From NCBI GenBank assembly GCA_947259095.1, contig CAMYLA010000008.1, positions 1-64,000 on the forward strand: a stretch of 64,000 bases of DNA. Direction: 5' to 3'. Source of the stretch: an uncultured Acidimicrobiaceae bacterium (lineage in GTDB: Bacteria; Actinomycetota; Acidimicrobiia; Acidimicrobiales; SZUA-35). This document shows, in pieces, positions 4,173 through 16,373 of the stretch. Positions within the stretch are counted from its first letter, which is position 1. Every line of letters starts with the position of its first letter. The notes under the pieces were generated by a model. It searched no databases. It saw only the letters and a program-made list of their open reading frames with translations, and had not been told where the DNA came from. A program made the position numbers and the translations under genes.

Positions 4173-4916
4173 ATGGCAACCGACGAACCACCACCGCCCA
4201 CCGAACCCCCACCGGCCGGACGCCGGATTCGGGCACTGTGCTTCGATGTGTTCGGCACGGTCGTCGACTGGCGGGGCTCGATCATCGACGAGGGCCGGGC
4301 GCTGGGCCGACGGCTCGGCATCGAGCGCGACTGGACGGCCTTCGCCGACGCCTGGCGCGGTCGCTACCAACCGTCGATGGAGCGGGTCCGGTCGGGGGAG
4401 ATCGACTGGAAGCCGCTCGACGAGTTGCACATGGAGAGCCTCGAGGCCCTGCTCGAGGAGTTCGAGATCGAGCTCGGCGACGAGCAACGGCTCGATTTCA
4501 ATCGGGCCTGGCATCGCCTTCGCCCCTGGCCGGAGGTGGTGCCGGCGTTGACCGACCTGGCCGGCCGCTACATCCTGGCCACCCTGTCGAACGCCAACAT
4601 CGGGTTGGCCAGGAACATGGCGGCGAACGCCGGCCTGCCGTGGCACCGGATCCTCGGCGCCGAGTTCGCCCGGGCCTACAAACCGTTGCCCGAGGCCTAC
4701 CTGCGATCGGCAGCCGGCCTCGGTCTCGAACCGGAGCAGTGCATGCTGGTGGCGGCCCACAACAACGACCTGGAGGCCGCCTCGGCCCTCGGCTTCGCCA
4801 CCGCCTTCGTGGCCAGACCGACCGAATACGGCCCCAACCAGACCGCCGACCTCGAAGCCACCGGCCCGTGGGACATCGTCGTCGGCGACTTCACCGAGCT
4901 GGCTCGGGCACTGTGA
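4173..4916 (+). CDS. HAD-superfamily hydrolase, haloacid dehalogenase type II-like
   Basis: The protein has 247 residues with a Pro-rich N-terminal tail. HAD motif 1 is FDVFGTVVDW (nucleophile Asp25), motif 2 lies in TLSNANIG, motif 3 is the lysine of YKPLPEAY, and motif 4 is AAHNNDLEAA. The DxFGT form and the helical cap are typical of L-2-haloacid dehalogenases and related hydrolases, which use an aspartyl-ester intermediate. Whether it dehalogenates or removes phosphate cannot be decided here. It starts 30 bp after the MFS gene on the same strand, so the two may be co-transcribed. Confidence 0.85.
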   Translation: MATDEPPPPTEPPPAGRRIRALCFDVFGTVVDWRGSIIDEGRALGRRLGIERDWTAFADAWRGRYQPSMERVRSGEIDWKPLDELHMESLEALLEEFEIELGDEQRLDFNRAWHRLRPWPEVVPALTDLAGRYILATLSNANIGLARNMAANAGLPWHRILGAEFARAYKPLPEAYLRSAAGLGLEPEQCMLVAAHNNDLEAASALGFATAFVARPTEYGPNQTADLEATGPWDIVVGDFTELARAL

Positions 4917-4932
4917 CCGGTGGCGGCCTCAC

Positions 4933-6711
4933 TCAGGTCCGCGACCAGGCGGCAAACAGGTCGGCGTAGTTTCGCCCGGCCTCGATGAGGTCGTCGTGGC
5001 GCCCGAGCTCGACCAGGCGACCGTCTGCGATCACCCCCACCCGATCGCAACGGGCCGCGGTCGACAGCCGATGGGCGATCACGATCACCGTCCGCGACGT
5101 CATGAGGGCGTCCATGGCCCGTTCCACCAGGGCTTCGGTGCCGGGGTCGATGCTGGAGGTCGCCTCGTCGAGGATCAGGATTGCCGGGTCGACCAGAGCG
5201 GCCCTGGCCAACGACACCACCTGCCGTTCACCGGCCGAGAGCCTGCTTCCTCGCTCCTGGACTTCGGTGGCCAGACCGTCCGGCAGCTTCTCGAAGATCT
5301 CCGTGGCTCCGATCCTGGCCACTGCGGCCACCACCTCGGCATCGGTGGCCGATGGCCTGGCGAAGCGGATGTTGTCGAGGATCGAACCCGAGAACAGGAA
5401 TCCCTCCTGGGGCACGACCACGATCTCGGATCGCAGCGACTGGTACGACACCGTCCGCAGGTCCACCCCGTCGACCCGGACCGTGCCGACCGTCGGGTCG
5501 TAGAATCGAGCCACCAGCTTGGCCAGGGTCGACTTGCCGGCCCCGGTCGGGCCGACGAGGGCCAGGCGCTCCCCGGCGGCGATCGAGAGGTCGATCGACG
5601 TCAGCACCGTCGACTCCTCGTCGTAGGCGAAACCGACGTTCTCCAACTGGATCGACCCGGGCCCGGTGAGCTCCACCGGGTCGGCGATCTCGTCGATCTC
5701 CACCGGTTCGTCTATCAGTTCGTAGATCTTGTTGAGGGCCGCGGTTGCCGACTGGACCAGGTTGAACAGCTGGCTCAGCTGCTGGACCGGACCGAACAGG
5801 CTCTGCAGGATCAACACGAACGCCGCCACTGTCCCCAGGGTCAGCAGGTCCATCCCGATCAACAGCCCACCGACACCCAAGGCGATGGCGGTGGTGAGCG
5901 CACCGGTGAACTCGATGATGGGCAGATACCAGGCGGCGATGCGGACCGAGTCCATGTGTGACCGGTAAAGCCGGCGGTTGGTATCGGCGAAACGGTTGGC
6001 CTCGATGCTCTCCCTGGCGAAGGCCTGCACGATCCGGACCCCGGAGATGCCCTCCTGGAGGCTGGTGAGGGTGGTTCCCACACTGTCGCGGACGGCGAGG
6101 TATGCCCGGTTCGAGTCGCGATGGAACTTGATGCTGGCGGCGACGATGAGCGGCGTGCTCACCAGGCAGACCAACAGGAGCTGCCAGCTGAGCACGGCCA
6201 GCACCACCGCCGACGAACCGAGGAGCAGGGCGGCGCTGACGAACATCAGGAGACCGAACTGCACCAGGTCCTGGAGTGAATCGATGTCGGAGGTCATGCG
6301 GCTGACAAGCACTCCGGACTTCTCACGGTCGTAGAACGGCAGCGATTGGCGCAGCATCCTGGAGAAGACCCGATTCCGCAGGTCCCGAAGGAACCCCTCC
6401 CCCACGTGGGCCAGGTTGACGATGGCCAGCCGGTAGGTGAGGTATGCCGCGGCGGCGGCTGCGATGTAGAGGCCGACCGACAGGTTCAGCTGGCCCCGAT
6501 CGCCGACCCGGAGACCTTGATCGATGGCCCGCCGGACCAGGAGCGGCCCGGCCAGGGTCAGCAGCGTCCACAACACCAGCGCCACCAATGCGGCGATCAT
6601 CCGGCCCCGGTACGGCCGGGTCAGCCGAGCCGTCCTGGCCGCCACCCGGCGGGCCCCGTCGACCCCCAGCTGATCGTCCTCGCCGACCCCGAGCGACATT
6701 CGCCACGCCAT
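4933..6711 (-). CDS. ABC exporter half-transporter, consensus-site subunit
   Basis: This is a 592-residue half-transporter: a six-helix exporter membrane domain (about residues 35-330) followed by a nucleotide-binding domain. It has Walker A GPTGAGKST, Walker B LILDEATSS with the catalytic Glu, H-loop IAHRLST, but an unusual signature LSAGERQ. Its start overlaps the stop of the partner gene (TGATG), so translation is coupled and the two should form a heterodimer. This subunit supplies the catalytic Glu, while its non-standard signature falls in the degenerate site. Heterodimeric exporters of this type move lipids or drugs; the cargo is unknown. Confidence 0.9.
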   Translation of the reverse strand: MAWRMSLGVGEDDQLGVDGARRVAARTARLTRPYRGRMIAALVALVLWTLLTLAGPLLVRRAIDQGLRVGDRGQLNLSVGLYIAAAAAAYLTYRLAIVNLAHVGEGFLRDLRNRVFSRMLRQSLPFYDREKSGVLVSRMTSDIDSLQDLVQFGLLMFVSAALLLGSSAVVLAVLSWQLLLVCLVSTPLIVAASIKFHRDSNRAYLAVRDSVGTTLTSLQEGISGVRIVQAFARESIEANRFADTNRRLYRSHMDSVRIAAWYLPIIEFTGALTTAIALGVGGLLIGMDLLTLGTVAAFVLILQSLFGPVQQLSQLFNLVQSATAALNKIYELIDEPVEIDEIADPVELTGPGSIQLENVGFAYDEESTVLTSIDLSIAAGERLALVGPTGAGKSTLAKLVARFYDPTVGTVRVDGVDLRTVSYQSLRSEIVVVPQEGFLFSGSILDNIRFARPSATDAEVVAAVARIGATEIFEKLPDGLATEVQERGSRLSAGERQVVSLARAALVDPAILILDEATSSIDPGTEALVERAMDALMTSRTVIVIAHRLSTAARCDRVGVIADGRLVELGRHDDLIEAGRNYADLFAAWSRT

Positions 6712-12475: not shown

Positions 12476-13216
12476 TCATGTTGGGGCGGTGGGCAGGCGT
12501 CGCATCGGCGGACCGTTGGCGTCGGTCTCACCCCAGTACTCGGGCAGCCGGAGATAGCCGACCCGGGGCAGTTCCTGGGCCAACGGCAGACCCTGGTGGG
12601 CCTTGAGCCGCTGGATGGTCCGGATGTGGGTGAGTTGCTCGTAGAAGACCATCCAGAGCGACGCCTCCAGGGTGTAGGAGATGAAACCGGGGCGGGCCGG
12701 GTCGGGGCCGGCCCCCCGGGGCAGCGTGGTGATCACGTACTGCCAGAAGTAGGTCCCACGAACGCTGGTGCGGTCGGCCCGAAGCTCGTCGATCGAACGT
12801 TCCGTGACCACCCGCTCCAGCCAGCCATTGCCAAGTTCGACCTTGGCCAGCAGATCAGGAATCTCCCAGAACATGTCCTCGTCGAGCAACCGGTCGTACT
12901 TCATGTCTGGGCCGAGATGATGGTGGCGCCACACCACCGGCTCCGGCTCGTCACCGTCCGGCCACAGCAGTTGGGCACAGCGGCGGTGGGTGAACACCAA
13001 CGCGTCCCAGGCGATGTGGGACACCTGGCGACGGATCGACCACCACATCCACTCGGCGTCCGGACTCTGGTCGTCAACGTCGAGCTGCTCGGTGGTGAGA
13101 CCGGCCAGCTCCACCTCCAGCCAGGTCGGCAAACGGCAATAGGGCGGCATGGCCCCGATCGATTCGTCGTCCGGCATCTCGACGATGTCCGGGGAGACCA
13201 ACGCCATGTCAGGCAC
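12476..13216 (-). CDS. DinB-like four-helix protein of unknown role
   Basis: The protein has 246 residues. The segment WMWWSIRRQVSHIAWDALVF and the later FYEQLTHIRTIQRLK resemble helices one and four of the DinB / mycothiol-dependent isomerase fold, where three His residues bind a metal. Two candidate His residues are visible in those segments. Members act as thiol-dependent transferases or isomerases, but I cannot assign a reaction. The start overlaps the end of the upstream LLM oxidoreductase gene by 8 bp, so the two are translated together and probably work on the same compound. An alternative ATG lies three codons inside. Confidence 0.6.
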   Translation of the reverse strand: MPDMALVSPDIVEMPDDESIGAMPPYCRLPTWLEVELAGLTTEQLDVDDQSPDAEWMWWSIRRQVSHIAWDALVFTHRRCAQLLWPDGDEPEPVVWRHHHLGPDMKYDRLLDEDMFWEIPDLLAKVELGNGWLERVVTERSIDELRADRTSVRGTYFWQYVITTLPRGAGPDPARPGFISYTLEASLWMVFYEQLTHIRTIQRLKAHQGLPLAQELPRVGYLRLPEYWGETDANGPPMRRLPTAPT

Positions 13217-14225
13217 CGTCCAGTTCGGCTCTGACCCTGGGCAGGACCTCGGTGGCCAGACGCTCGATGTTGGTGTTCATGAAGTCGGGTTCGATTCCCG
13301 GCGGCAATCCGGACGAGGCGATGTCGGTCACGCCGAACTCGGTGGCGAACGACACCATCTCGGACGCACACTCCTCGGCGGTCCCCATGAACGAGCCCTG
13401 GGGGATCCCGCCCCCCTTGCCCCAGCCGTACTCGTCAGGGGTCGAGGCCATGAACTTGTTGTAGATCGCCATCCGGAACCGTTCGGCCTCCCGGAGGATG
13501 GGCCAGTCCCGCTCCCGGTCGTCACTGACATAGAAGGAGCGGATGATCCCGATCCGGTAGCGGTCGGGGTCACGGCCATCGGCCGCCACCGCGGCCCGGA
13601 ACGGGTCCAGCACGTCTGTCCGGTCACCCTGGGGTAGCAGGTTGGTCCCGAACCGGGCCGCCCGCTTGGCTCCGGCCTCGCTCATGGCCGCGATCCACAG
13701 CGGGGGACCACCCGCCTGGACCGGCTTTGGATGCACGTCGACGTCATCCAGCCGATAACGCCGGCCGGTGTAGCTGAATGGTCCATCGGACCAGGCCAGC
13801 CGGAGGATGTCGATGCCCTCCTCGGTCATCGACACCCGGTTCTTGAGCGGGACCCCGAAGGCCTTGAACTCCTCCGGGACGTAGCCCATGCCGATGCCGA
13901 GCTCGATCCTGCCGTTGCTCAGATGGTCGAGCACCGCCAGTTCCTCGGCCAGCCGGATCGGGTGGTACAGGGGCAACAGGGCGATATCGGTGGAGATCCG
14001 GATCCGCTCGGTCACCGCGGCGATGGCACCGGCCAGCGGCTGAAAGGCCGGCAGGTAGCCGTCGGCCAGGAAGTGGTGCTCGGTGAACCACACGTGGTCG
14101 AAACCGAGCCCATCGGCAAGCGCCGCCTGTTCGACGGTTGCGGCGTAGACGTCGGTCATCGACAGCGCACTGTCGGGCGTCCGGCGGCAGTCGTACATCA
14201 GGCCGAAGCGGAAGGGAGGTGCCAT
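13209..14225 (-). CDS. LLM-class flavin-dependent oxidoreductase
   Basis: This is a 338-residue protein of the bacterial luciferase-like family. The TIM-barrel opens with FRFGLMYDCR, followed by FDHVWFTEHHF, ISTDIALLPLYHPIRLAEE and LSNGRIELGIGMGYVPEEFKAFGV, all typical of FMN- or F420-using monooxygenases and dehydrogenases. It is the first gene of a pair with the DinB-like gene. It diverges from the AhpD-like gene with 138 bp between the starts. Whether it uses FMN or F420 cannot be settled from sequence alone. Confidence 0.9.
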   Translation of the reverse strand: MAPPFRFGLMYDCRRTPDSALSMTDVYAATVEQAALADGLGFDHVWFTEHHFLADGYLPAFQPLAGAIAAVTERIRISTDIALLPLYHPIRLAEELAVLDHLSNGRIELGIGMGYVPEEFKAFGVPLKNRVSMTEEGIDILRLAWSDGPFSYTGRRYRLDDVDVHPKPVQAGGPPLWIAAMSEAGAKRAARFGTNLLPQGDRTDVLDPFRAAVAADGRDPDRYRIGIIRSFYVSDDRERDWPILREAERFRMAIYNKFMASTPDEYGWGKGGGIPQGSFMGTAEECASEMVSFATEFGVTDIASSGLPPGIEPDFMNTNIERLATEVLPRVRAELDGA

Positions 14226-14363
14226 CGCAACGGTCTACCCCATCGACCTGCCGGTCGCCAGGTGGCCAGGTCGCCGGGCCGGGTGCGGTTCTGTGGCCAG
14301 ACGACCGATGTGTCGGTCGGCCACCAAATGGAACCACCGGCGGCCACGGGCTAACAAGGGACG

Positions 14364-15533
14364 GTGATCGATCTCTACGCAGACGCACCGGTGCCGGTCA
14401 GGACCGATCTGGCCCGGGCCCACCTCGAGACGGTCCGGCGGTGGGCGGCACCGGGCAATCACTGGACCGGTCGGCAGCGATTGGCCATGGTCGACCAGGT
14501 CAGGCGGGCCAGGGCCGCCGAGCCGCTGGCGCCGTGGATCCGGCCCACCTTGATCGAGGGCCTGGTCCATGGCCCGGCCGACGGCTCCGTCGAGGGTGAT
14601 GCCGGGGCCCGACACGGCGAGACCGGTGCCAGGCTGCCCGATGCGGCCATCGACGCCGTCTGGCGACTGACCACCCACCCCGGGACCCTGACCGAGGACT
14701 GGTATCGCGACATCATCGACCGCGGCCTGACCCCGGAGCAGTACGTGGAGTTGGTGGCGGTGGTGGCCACCGCCAACTGCCTCGACGTTTTCGCGACGGC
14801 GATCGGTCTCGACCCGGTCCCGCTGCCGGGCCCCTCCGAGGGCCTCCCGGACGGTCGAGCGGTGGCATCGGCATCGGTGACCAGCCATTGGGTACCGACG
14901 GTCCAGGGCGGCGGGGCCAACGTCGGCAAGGCGTTGAGCGCGGTGCCGGTGGCCATGGGGGCCTGGCAGTTGTTGTCGGCCGCCCAGTACGTACCGCCGG
15001 AGGCGCTGGTCAAGGATCTCAATTGGAGCCGGGGGCCGTTGGATCGTATGCAGGTGGAGCTGCTGGCCGCTCGGACCTCGCTGCTGAACGAGTGTTTCTA
15101 TTGAACGACATCCCATGCGATGCTGCTCGGTCTGAGCGGCGCAGCCTCCGAACGCGACACCGATCTCCAGGTCGTCGCCGGACCGGGCGATGGCGGTGTT
15201 GCCGCCGGCGCCCTTCTGACCAACTTCGCCGAGCAGGTGCATCACCGATCGGTCGACGATGCCGGTCGCAAGGCGATCATCGAATCGGTCGGAACCGACG
15301 GCCTGGTCGATGCGGCCGCGGTCTGCGCCAACTTCAACATGATGGTTCGCATCGCCGATGGAACCGGGACCCCACTCGATACCGGCTCGGTCTCGATGTC
15401 GGAGCGACTGCGGGCCGAGCTCGACCTCGACAAGCTGGCGAGCAGGCGGCTGGCATCGGCGACCGGCGGCGGTGAAGAGCGGCACCGTGCCGGCCCGCCG
15501 TCCGGTGCTTCTCCCCGAAGCCCCGAACCCTAG
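14364..15533 (+). CDS. Two-domain AhpD-like protein with in-frame TGA (probable selenocysteine)
   Basis: A GTG at 14364 with an AAGGG ribosome site opens a frame that meets TGA at 15102-15104 and continues in the same frame to a stop at 15533. Read through, it gives 389 residues with two AhpD-like domains. The second domain has NECFY-TGA-TTSHAM: Cys244, the TGA codon at 247 and His251 form the C-x-x-C-x-x-x-H active site of alkylhydroperoxidase AhpD, and Glu232 sits 12 residues before Cys244, as Glu118 does before Cys130 in mycobacterial AhpD. TGA thus takes the place of the second catalytic Cys. The first domain lacks the site. Sequence after the TGA remains protein-like (QVVAGPGDGG, VDAAAVCANFNMMVRIADG). 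The alternatives are a nonsense mutation or a TGC/TGT misread. Confidence 0.8.
15122..15140 (+). promoter_or_regulatory. SECIS-like hairpin just after the TGA
   Basis: Seventeen bases after the TGA, GCTGCTC (15122-15128) pairs with GAGCGGC (15134-15140), seven pairs including one G-U, closing the five-base loop GGTCT. The same GGUCU appears in the apical loop of the E. coli fdhF selenocysteine element, where the G and U contact SelB. The spacing from TGA to loop (24 nt) falls within the range known for bacterial elements. The RNA would direct insertion of selenocysteine at codon 247. Confidence 0.65.
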
Positions 15534-15542
15534 ACTCTGCCC

Positions 15543-16373
15543 GTGTCGAGCGACGAGAAATCACCGGCGGTTCTGTTCATCCACGCCCACCCGGACGACG
15601 AGTGCATCCTGACCGGTGCCACGCTGGCCAAAGCGTCGCACCTGGGCCTGGCGACCATCGTCGTCTACGGGACGAAGGGCGACGCCGGCGAGACCAGCGC
15701 CGAGCTTGGAGACCAGACGCTGGGCCAACGACGGGTGGGCGAGGCGATGGCGGCATGTGCCGACCTGGGCGTCGCCAGGGTGGAGTGGCTGCCGTACGCC
15801 GATTCGGGGATGGCCGGCACCGACACCACCGACAATCCCGAGGCATTCTCGAACGCCGATCCATCCATCGTTGCCGACTCGGTGGCCGAGCTGGTGGCCG
15901 CCGAGCACATCGTGGCGGTGGTCGGCTACGACGACAACGGCACCTACGGCCACCCCGACCACGTCCAGGTCCACCGGGTGGCGAACGAGGTGGCCAAGGC
16001 GCTCAACGCCCCATGGGTTCTGGATGCAACCTACAACCGGGAGCACCTGGCCTCGCTGCCCGGCGGCGACGGGACGCTCGACCCGGTGTTCGCCGCTGCT
16101 GAAGCCGATCTGACCCACTTCGTCGCCGGCGAGAAATGGCTCAAGGCCAAGATCACCGCGGTGTCGAACCACCTCTCCCAGGTGCCGGACGACTGGGACG
16201 CCGACAACCCCGACCTCGAGGGTTTCCGAGAGCGTTTCGGCACCGAGTGGTTCATCGCCCGGTCGCCGAACGGCGCCACCGACCTCGGGCCCCTGAACGA
16301 CCTCCTCACGCCGAAGGCCCTGTGGACCGAACGGGTGGCCGAGGAGTTCGACTCCTCGGCCAGCATCACGTAA
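15543..16373 (+). CDS. PIG-L family (MshB/Mca-like) deacetylase
   Basis: This 276-residue protein carries the PIG-L zinc motif AHPDDE near residue 16 and the second motif HPDHVQVH about 120 residues later. The family hydrolyses N-acetyl or amide bonds on glucosaminyl groups; in actinobacteria it includes MshB (mycothiol synthesis) and Mca (mycothiol conjugate amidase). The GTG start lies 9 bp after the AhpD-like gene, so the two are likely one transcript, which suggests a thiol or detoxification role. The sequence does not separate MshB-like from Mca-like function. Confidence 0.87.
   Translation: MSSDEKSPAVLFIHAHPDDECILTGATLAKASHLGLATIVVYGTKGDAGETSAELGDQTLGQRRVGEAMAACADLGVARVEWLPYADSGMAGTDTTDNPEAFSNADPSIVADSVAELVAAEHIVAVVGYDDNGTYGHPDHVQVHRVANEVAKALNAPWVLDATYNREHLASLPGGDGTLDPVFAAAEADLTHFVAGEKWLKAKITAVSNHLSQVPDDWDADNPDLEGFRERFGTEWFIARSPNGATDLGPLNDLLTPKALWTERVAEEFDSSASIT

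Follow-up and report, generated by a model that had tools for sequence, protein, structure and literature searches.

The frame at 14,364–15,533 of the window (the whole 64,000-nucleotide stretch analysed) very probably encodes a redox selenoprotein of the curated family NF041238, in which an in-frame TGA is read as selenocysteine (Sec) within a C-F-Y-U active site. We hold this combined reading, that is Sec decoding, family membership and a redox role taken jointly, with high confidence. The selenocysteine reading of the TGA at 15,102, which is drawn from sequence comparison, would on its own be a little surer still and close to certain. The preliminary description of this stretch had proposed that reading, and it is supported by the selenocysteine machinery of the genome, by the recurrence of the TGA in all 62 fetched loci L023–L084, by a SECIS element and by the family match. 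The features are collected in Table 1.

Table 1 Features of the predicted selenoprotein gene and their positions in the window.
Feature	Position	Strand	Remarks
Possible ribosome-binding site AAGGGA	14356..14361	+	Near the start codon; inferred by inspection of the sequence
NF041238 (AhpD_rel_CFYUT) predicted selenoprotein CDS, 389 aa with Sec247	14364..15533	+	GTG start, TAG stop; translated with TGA=U
N-terminal half (about residues 1–168), possibly a degenerate CMD domain without CxxC	14364..14867	+	Weak profile similarity
Glu232, putative AhpD proton relay	15057..15059	+	12 residues before Cys244; invariant 34/34
Cys244, partner Cys of C-F-Y-U	15093..15095	+	Invariant 34/34
Predicted Sec247, in-frame TGA	15102..15104	+	TGA in 62/62 fetched loci; TGC in the single Cys form
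His251, putative AhpD proton relay	15114..15116	+	4 residues after Sec247; invariant 34/34
Predicted bacterial SECIS hairpin	15121..15141	+	Arms 15121–15128 and 15134–15141; apical loop 15129–15133 (GGUCU)

The frame opens with GTG at 14,364 and closes with TAG at 15,531–15,533, and the sole internal stop among its 390 codons is the TGA at 15,102–15,104, as the preliminary description had it; the placement of Glu232, Cys244, residue 247 and His251 given there also agrees with the translation. Translation table 11 divides the gene into two ORFs, 14,364–15,104 (246 aa) and 15,120–15,533 (137 aa). GC content at codon positions 1/2/3 is 72/53/87% 5' of the TGA and 73/56/77% 3' of it, and against the orthologues L026, L023 and L024 the differences are highest at codon position 3 on either side of the TGA (for L026, 53/37/102 by codon position before it and 29/23/46 after). 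These patterns of composition and of substitution relative to three orthologues indicate that the segments 5' and 3' of the TGA are both coding and under constraint. The Pfam CMD profile scores 27.5 bits with the TGA read through, compared to 18.3 bits for the first part alone (cut-off 23). Protein-like sequence had been reported on both sides of the TGA, and the GC3 pattern, the position-3 differences and the gain in CMD score all agree with this. Around the site the read-through product is NECFY-U-TTSHAMLLGL, and 33 homologues of 27–68% identity align along the frame; at the site itself 32 carry TGA and one carries Cys.

The TGA is present at the active-site position in 62 of 62 fetched loci (L023–L084), which represent 59 distinct places and include the window's own gene twice. 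It directly follows [EDQ]CF[YF], as found by script for 61 loci and, for L083 (Gln before Cys), as read in the wider region L101. Within the gene's own GTDB family the protein is matched in 30 of 39 genomes. Where residue 247 is covered, every match there of E 1e-9 or better contains one or more in-frame TGA codons; six weak ones (E 2e-5 to 7e-4) show no stop and are presumed to be other CMD proteins. NF041238 is over its cut-off in 74 of 395 genomes of the class sample, with 82 genes listed, 81 of which contain exactly one in-frame TGA (its place verified in the fetched loci only) and one none. This TGA-free gene (G284:C4) reads NRCFYCTLGH, with Cys, codon TGC, at the Sec position. The check on close homologues that had been proposed thus finds Cys where the window gene has TGA, and the frames of the relatives continue past the TGA rather than ending there. 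In the phylum sample only 4 of 396 genomes hold the family over cut-off, all from the same class as the window. The window's own genome (G000) carries three NF041238 genes, namely the window gene and paralogues on contigs C24 and C83.

These results bear on a reading of the gene as split or decayed, with the TGA being a real stop, a nonsense mutation or an error of sequencing. It is true that the ORFs of table 11 end and restart at the TGA, and that the bin is fragmented (6.39 Mb in 229 contigs, 96.5% complete, 7.1% contaminated). Yet a split or decayed gene is extremely improbable given the same TGA at the same active-site place in all 62 loci L023–L084, a 3' part under the same codon-position constraint as the 5' part, a conserved hairpin directly 3' of the TGA, and the location of His251 and the remaining conserved C-terminal half past it.

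Two further observations concern related frames. On G000:C4:217064-217340 we noted fragments that resemble the N-terminal part of NF041238 and are interrupted by TAG and TGA; they may be a pseudogene. Among the class-sample rows of about 40–60 bits, which are below cut-off, one in-frame TGA is reported for many AhpD-like frames of smaller size (often about 190 aa), and because of these frames a second AhpD-like selenoprotein may perhaps be common in the class.

The genome contains selA, selB, selD and a tRNA-Sec gene, the components whose absence had been said beforehand to count against a selenocysteine reading. selA (404 bits, cut-off 268) adjoins selB (275 bits, cut-off 242) on contig C168, and this contig is 4.8 kb long. 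The tRNA-Sec scores 64.8 bits (gathering score 47) and is confirmed by ARAGORN with anticodon tca. There are two selD genes, on C27 (361 bits) and on C83 (346 bits), with one in-frame TGA each; the paired copies would reflect either a true duplication or the 7.1% contamination of the bin. On C83 (locus L086) selD at 1757–2680 and the NF041238 paralogue at 4409–5329 lie about 1.7 kb apart. A contaminant origin of the Sec machinery was considered and judged unlikely, because each of the 12 genomes from the genus has selA. Its closest counterpart (77%) is in G026, the genome that also carries the closest orthologue of the window gene (68%).

Across the class sample selA is over its cut-off in 256 of 395 genomes, and it is found more often with NF041238 (64 of 74 genomes) than without it (192 of 321; Fisher p 6e-6, relatedness of the genomes ignored). 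The 10 NF041238 genomes without selA over cut-off comprise six with no match (completeness 56, 72, 73, 79, 82 and 90%) and four with a weak or partial one (56, 77, 77 and 82%). Taken with the frequency of NF041238 in the same sample, the frequency of selA suggests that UGA is widely decoded as Sec in the class.

The hairpin lies directly behind the UGA. With the UGA counted as 1–3, bases 20–27 pair with bases 33–40 around a five-base loop, and the hairpin starts 16 nt 3' of the UGA. In the section of the 2005 Sargasso Sea paper on which we draw, the mark of a bacterial selenoprotein gene is a stem-loop that directly follows the UGA and has a small, G-containing apical loop (PMC1088965). Such a stem-loop is found here at 15,121–15,141, with loop GGUCU, and is conserved across 58 distinct sequences. 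The fold of the single sequence is not more stable than its shuffles (z -0.36), and the case for a SECIS therefore rests on comparison.

In this comparison 84.5% of the 58 x 8 cells are paired, compared to 58.4% (sd 2.4, max 65.7) in 1000 synonymous redraws, a null that is only approximate since its codon weights come from the same stretches; with the arms slid six ways, 31–53% of the cells pair. A stricter shuffle within codon columns reaches a mean of 81.9% and a maximum of 83.6% (1000 shuffles), values that are so high because the codon columns are nearly fixed; the observed pairing lies above all of these shuffles by a narrow margin. When no bulge is allowed, 36 of the 58 sequences form at least 7 of the 8 pairs, a number equal to the maximum of the within-column shuffles. 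When A22 is allowed to bulge, at least 7 of 8 pairs form in 50 of 58, while the null has a mean of 10.9 and a maximum of 20. The results show two SECIS forms, one fully paired and one with A22 bulged. Of the 21 sequences for which the bulged form is the better fit, 19 have A at position 22; this form explains many of the hairpin mismatches among the 58 sequences.

Codon usage within the hairpin follows the same direction. For the Leu of codon 9 the 58 sequences use CTC (55) or CTT (3) and never CTG, while the window gene as a whole uses 20 CTG vs 11 CTC; codon 10 has T as its last base in 56 of 58, and codon 12 is AGC or AGT in 55. The GU at the second and third bases of the loop, kept in 56 of 58, is thus due to codon choice. 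The loop of E. coli fdhF is similar to this GU-containing loop. At synonymous sites the hairpin pairs and the GU of the loop persist in spite of codon preference, which shows selection, as judged from the aligned sequences. The pattern TGA-N21-CTC-N-GT-NN-GAG has 6 matches in the 6.39 Mb genome, 3 of which are its three NF041238 genes, compared to 2 in the whole genome for the reversed pattern used as control; within the window it has one match, with 0.04 expected.

The hairpin also bears on the possibility that the TGA is decoded as Trp or Cys, by an altered code or a suppressor, and not as Sec. The Cys of one homologue implies that Cys insertion would be chemically acceptable, but TGA serves as the stop of 7 of the 11 listed window genes around the selenoprotein gene, the Sec machinery of the genome is complete, and the hairpin goes together with the TGA: in the Cys form G284:C4 it is not found at the corresponding place. 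Decoding as an ordinary residue is, accordingly, hardly credible to us. Under the selenocysteine reading, the anatomy of the gene and the machinery of the genome suggest that the hairpin would recruit SelB with Sec-tRNA(UCA), so that the UGA is decoded as Sec247. The relatives, with one Cys form, many Sec forms and two SECIS shapes, provide a workable test bed, and two such shapes within one gene family could serve as a natural series for comparing recognition by SelB.

The protein matches NCBIfam NF041238.1, 'alkylhydroperoxidase-related (seleno)protein', at 321.1 bits (cut-off 175), with residues 12–359 aligned to profile positions 1–356 of 357. The motif C-F-Y-U-T in the name of this model is present in the window gene as ECFY-TGA-TTSH. 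The TIGR01926 profile gives 37.7 bits, below its cut-off of 81.8, and so does not claim the protein. Of the earlier assignment, then, membership of a recognised CxxU selenoprotein family stands, and the exact family is NF041238 instead of the COG2128/TIGR01926 'AhpD-like' one. A table of a 2026 review gives NF041238 with CxxU as 'AhpD-related protein (hypothetical protein 1, Sargasso Sea metagenome)' and has a separate row with TIGR01926 for the AhpD-like selenoprotein (PMC13188914). Hypothetical protein 1 was, according to the relevant portion of the 2005 Sargasso Sea paper, described from four CXXU sequences, and a figure legend in that paper names a SECIS for it (PMC1088965). Since the review equates NF041238 with this protein, the kind is already known and the window gene is a further member of a known, curated selenoprotein family.

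The window protein resembles NF041238 and 'hypothetical protein 1', as the consulted table and sections present them, in its full-length match, the CFYU motif, the position of Sec and a bacterial SECIS 3' of the UGA (PMC1088965, PMC13188914). It differs from the aligned NF041238 relatives by an insertion at about residues 69–89 and otherwise by nothing different in kind. With the COG2128/TIGR01926 AhpD-like selenoprotein (Sargasso Sea, GOS), as far as the cited portions describe it, it shares CxxU and the AhpD core (PMC1088965, PMC2398784, PMC13188914); it is unlike TIGR01926 in that the profile spans 178 positions, compared to 389 residues in the window protein, and in its score below cut-off. 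Our search of one literature collection found no study of NF041238 in Acidimicrobiia.

It had also been expected that automatic annotation would split the gene in two and lose the active site. Table 11 does split it, and annotation without awareness of Sec would split NF041238 genes and drop their active site. Sec-aware annotation based on NF041238 probably need not do so, because the name of the NCBI model carries the U.

We aligned 33 of the 43 relatives that were read out with the window protein, giving 34 sequences (L030, L038, L039, L053, L060, L064, L065, L069, L076 and L086 were omitted to limit size); start codons were chosen by a length rule, so that some N-termini may be wrong, and the N-terminus of L023 was trimmed manually. 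At residue 247, 33 of the 34 sequences have Sec and one has Cys; Phe245 is invariant and Tyr246 nearly so. The AhpD relay of M. tuberculosis is listed, in the passage we cite, as Glu118, Cys130, Cys133 and His137 (PMC3141380). The pattern Glu-x11-Cys-x2-[Cys/Sec]-x3-His is present in the window protein when Sec is counted as Cys, with a spacing identical to that of the M. tuberculosis enzyme, and a Tyr precedes the second redox residue as it does in P. aeruginosa PA0269 in the same passage (PMC3141380). Unlike AhpD, the protein has Sec instead of the second Cys and an additional N-terminal half. At E 0.01 or better the profile matches ten solved sequences. The top ones, among them 2pfx (E 1e-13) and 6k40 (E 2e-13), are peroxidase-related and AhpD proteins; the matches to solved AhpD-like chains cover the C-terminal half only. 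In each of the three solved relatives for which an alignment was shown, CxxC occupies the columns of CxxU.

Based on the conserved relay residues, the AhpD spacing and the solved AhpD-like matches, we infer a mechanism by analogy with AhpD. Cys244 and Sec247 would form a CxxU redox pair within the AhpD helix-turn-helix, with Glu232 and His251 relaying protons; the selenol of Sec247 would attack a hydroperoxide or a disulfide, Cys244 would resolve the intermediate, and the resulting Se-S bond would then be reduced by a cellular thiol system. Reduction of a hydroperoxide or a disulfide is the most likely activity on this analogy, and we put the chance that the substrate is a hydroperoxide rather than a disulfide at about even.

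The N-terminal half, which had been described as an inactive first domain, gives a less clear picture. In the window protein this half has no Pfam match at E <= 1 and thus no CMD match, and it contains no CxxC. A comparison of the two halves by hhalign is weak (probability 35%, P 4e-4, 38 columns) and matches residues 115–153 to the C-terminal half, the stretches being ELVAVVATANCLDVFATAIG (N-terminal) and VDAAAVCANFNMMVRIADGTG (C-terminal). The likeness of the halves gives the earlier description some weak support, and it is plausible that the N-terminal half is a degenerate, inactive CMD domain. An AlphaFold2 model built on a 3-sequence alignment was too poor (mean pLDDT 39, pTM 0.38) and was set aside. 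In human Sestrin2, as the cited excerpt describes it, only one of the two AhpD-like halves is active (PMC4674687). The window protein likewise has two halves with an AhpD-like helix-turn-helix in one only; unlike here, where CxxU lies in the C-terminal half, it is the N-terminal half of Sestrin2 that is active, with a single Cys, according to the same excerpt (PMC4674687). It could be imagined that NF041238 is a Sestrin-like pseudo-dimer, with a degenerate N-terminal AhpD and a Sec catalytic domain, acting as a mycothiol-linked selenoperoxidase kept across Acidimicrobiia, a picture that we consider rather unlikely.

Finally, we compared the gene neighbourhood, clustering the ORFs of the window's stretch and of 19 loci, 20 regions in all, with the overlapping and antisense frames of the gene dropped. 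Upstream, the opposite strand carries genes for a luciferase-like (LLM) monooxygenase (13,209–14,225), a 246-aa protein that matches nothing in Pfam, an acyl-CoA dehydrogenase and an EamA transporter. The downstream genes share the strand of the selenoprotein gene; here a PIG-L deacetylase (15,543–16,373) is followed by an ABC transporter pair. Only 9 bases separate the stop codon of the selenoprotein gene from the start of the PIG-L deacetylase, and the two are possibly on one transcript. The deacetylase is nearest to the mycothiol enzyme MshB but below its cut-off (122 bits vs 224), and nothing matching it occurs in the other 19 regions, including the G026 region of the closest orthologue. 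The LLM gene has matches in 3 of the 19, where only that of the same-genus G026 (83%) is clearly the same gene, the remaining two showing 32–35% identity over about half the length. One further cluster spans three regions (L089, L102, L104), the window not among them. As none of the neighbours is widely conserved with the gene in the 20 regions, we rejected them as functional evidence.

On the paralogue's contig C83, at about 2864–4280 of L086, a minus-strand frame resembles mycothione reductase (NF005884, 458 bits, cut-off 501) from model position 31 on. Head to head with it lies a plus-strand piece that by eye resembles a thioredoxin-like C-terminal part and has no NCBIfam match; the arrangement looks like an inversion junction or a misassembly.

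Such neighbours enter into the main alternative to a peroxide-reductase role, in which the selenoprotein would, for instance, reduce disulfides or mycothiol disulfides, or serve as an adaptor that returns a peroxiredoxin to its reduced state. AhpD itself is an adaptor for AhpC, as stated in the cited passage (PMC3141380), the next gene downstream is nearest to MshB, although with 122 of 224 bits, and the C83 paralogue adjoins selD and the mycothione reductase-like frame. Against this, the mycothiol-type neighbours are not conserved: none of the other 19 regions has a match to the PIG-L protein. The mycothione reductase-like frame lacks its N-terminal part and scores below cut-off. We give this alternative somewhat less than an even chance.

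In G026 the counterparts of the upstream genes stand in the same order and are 80–91% identical, with an extra ORF beside the selenoprotein gene. The two parts of the selenoprotein are 65% identical to those of G026, and the selenoprotein thus changes faster than these upstream neighbours.
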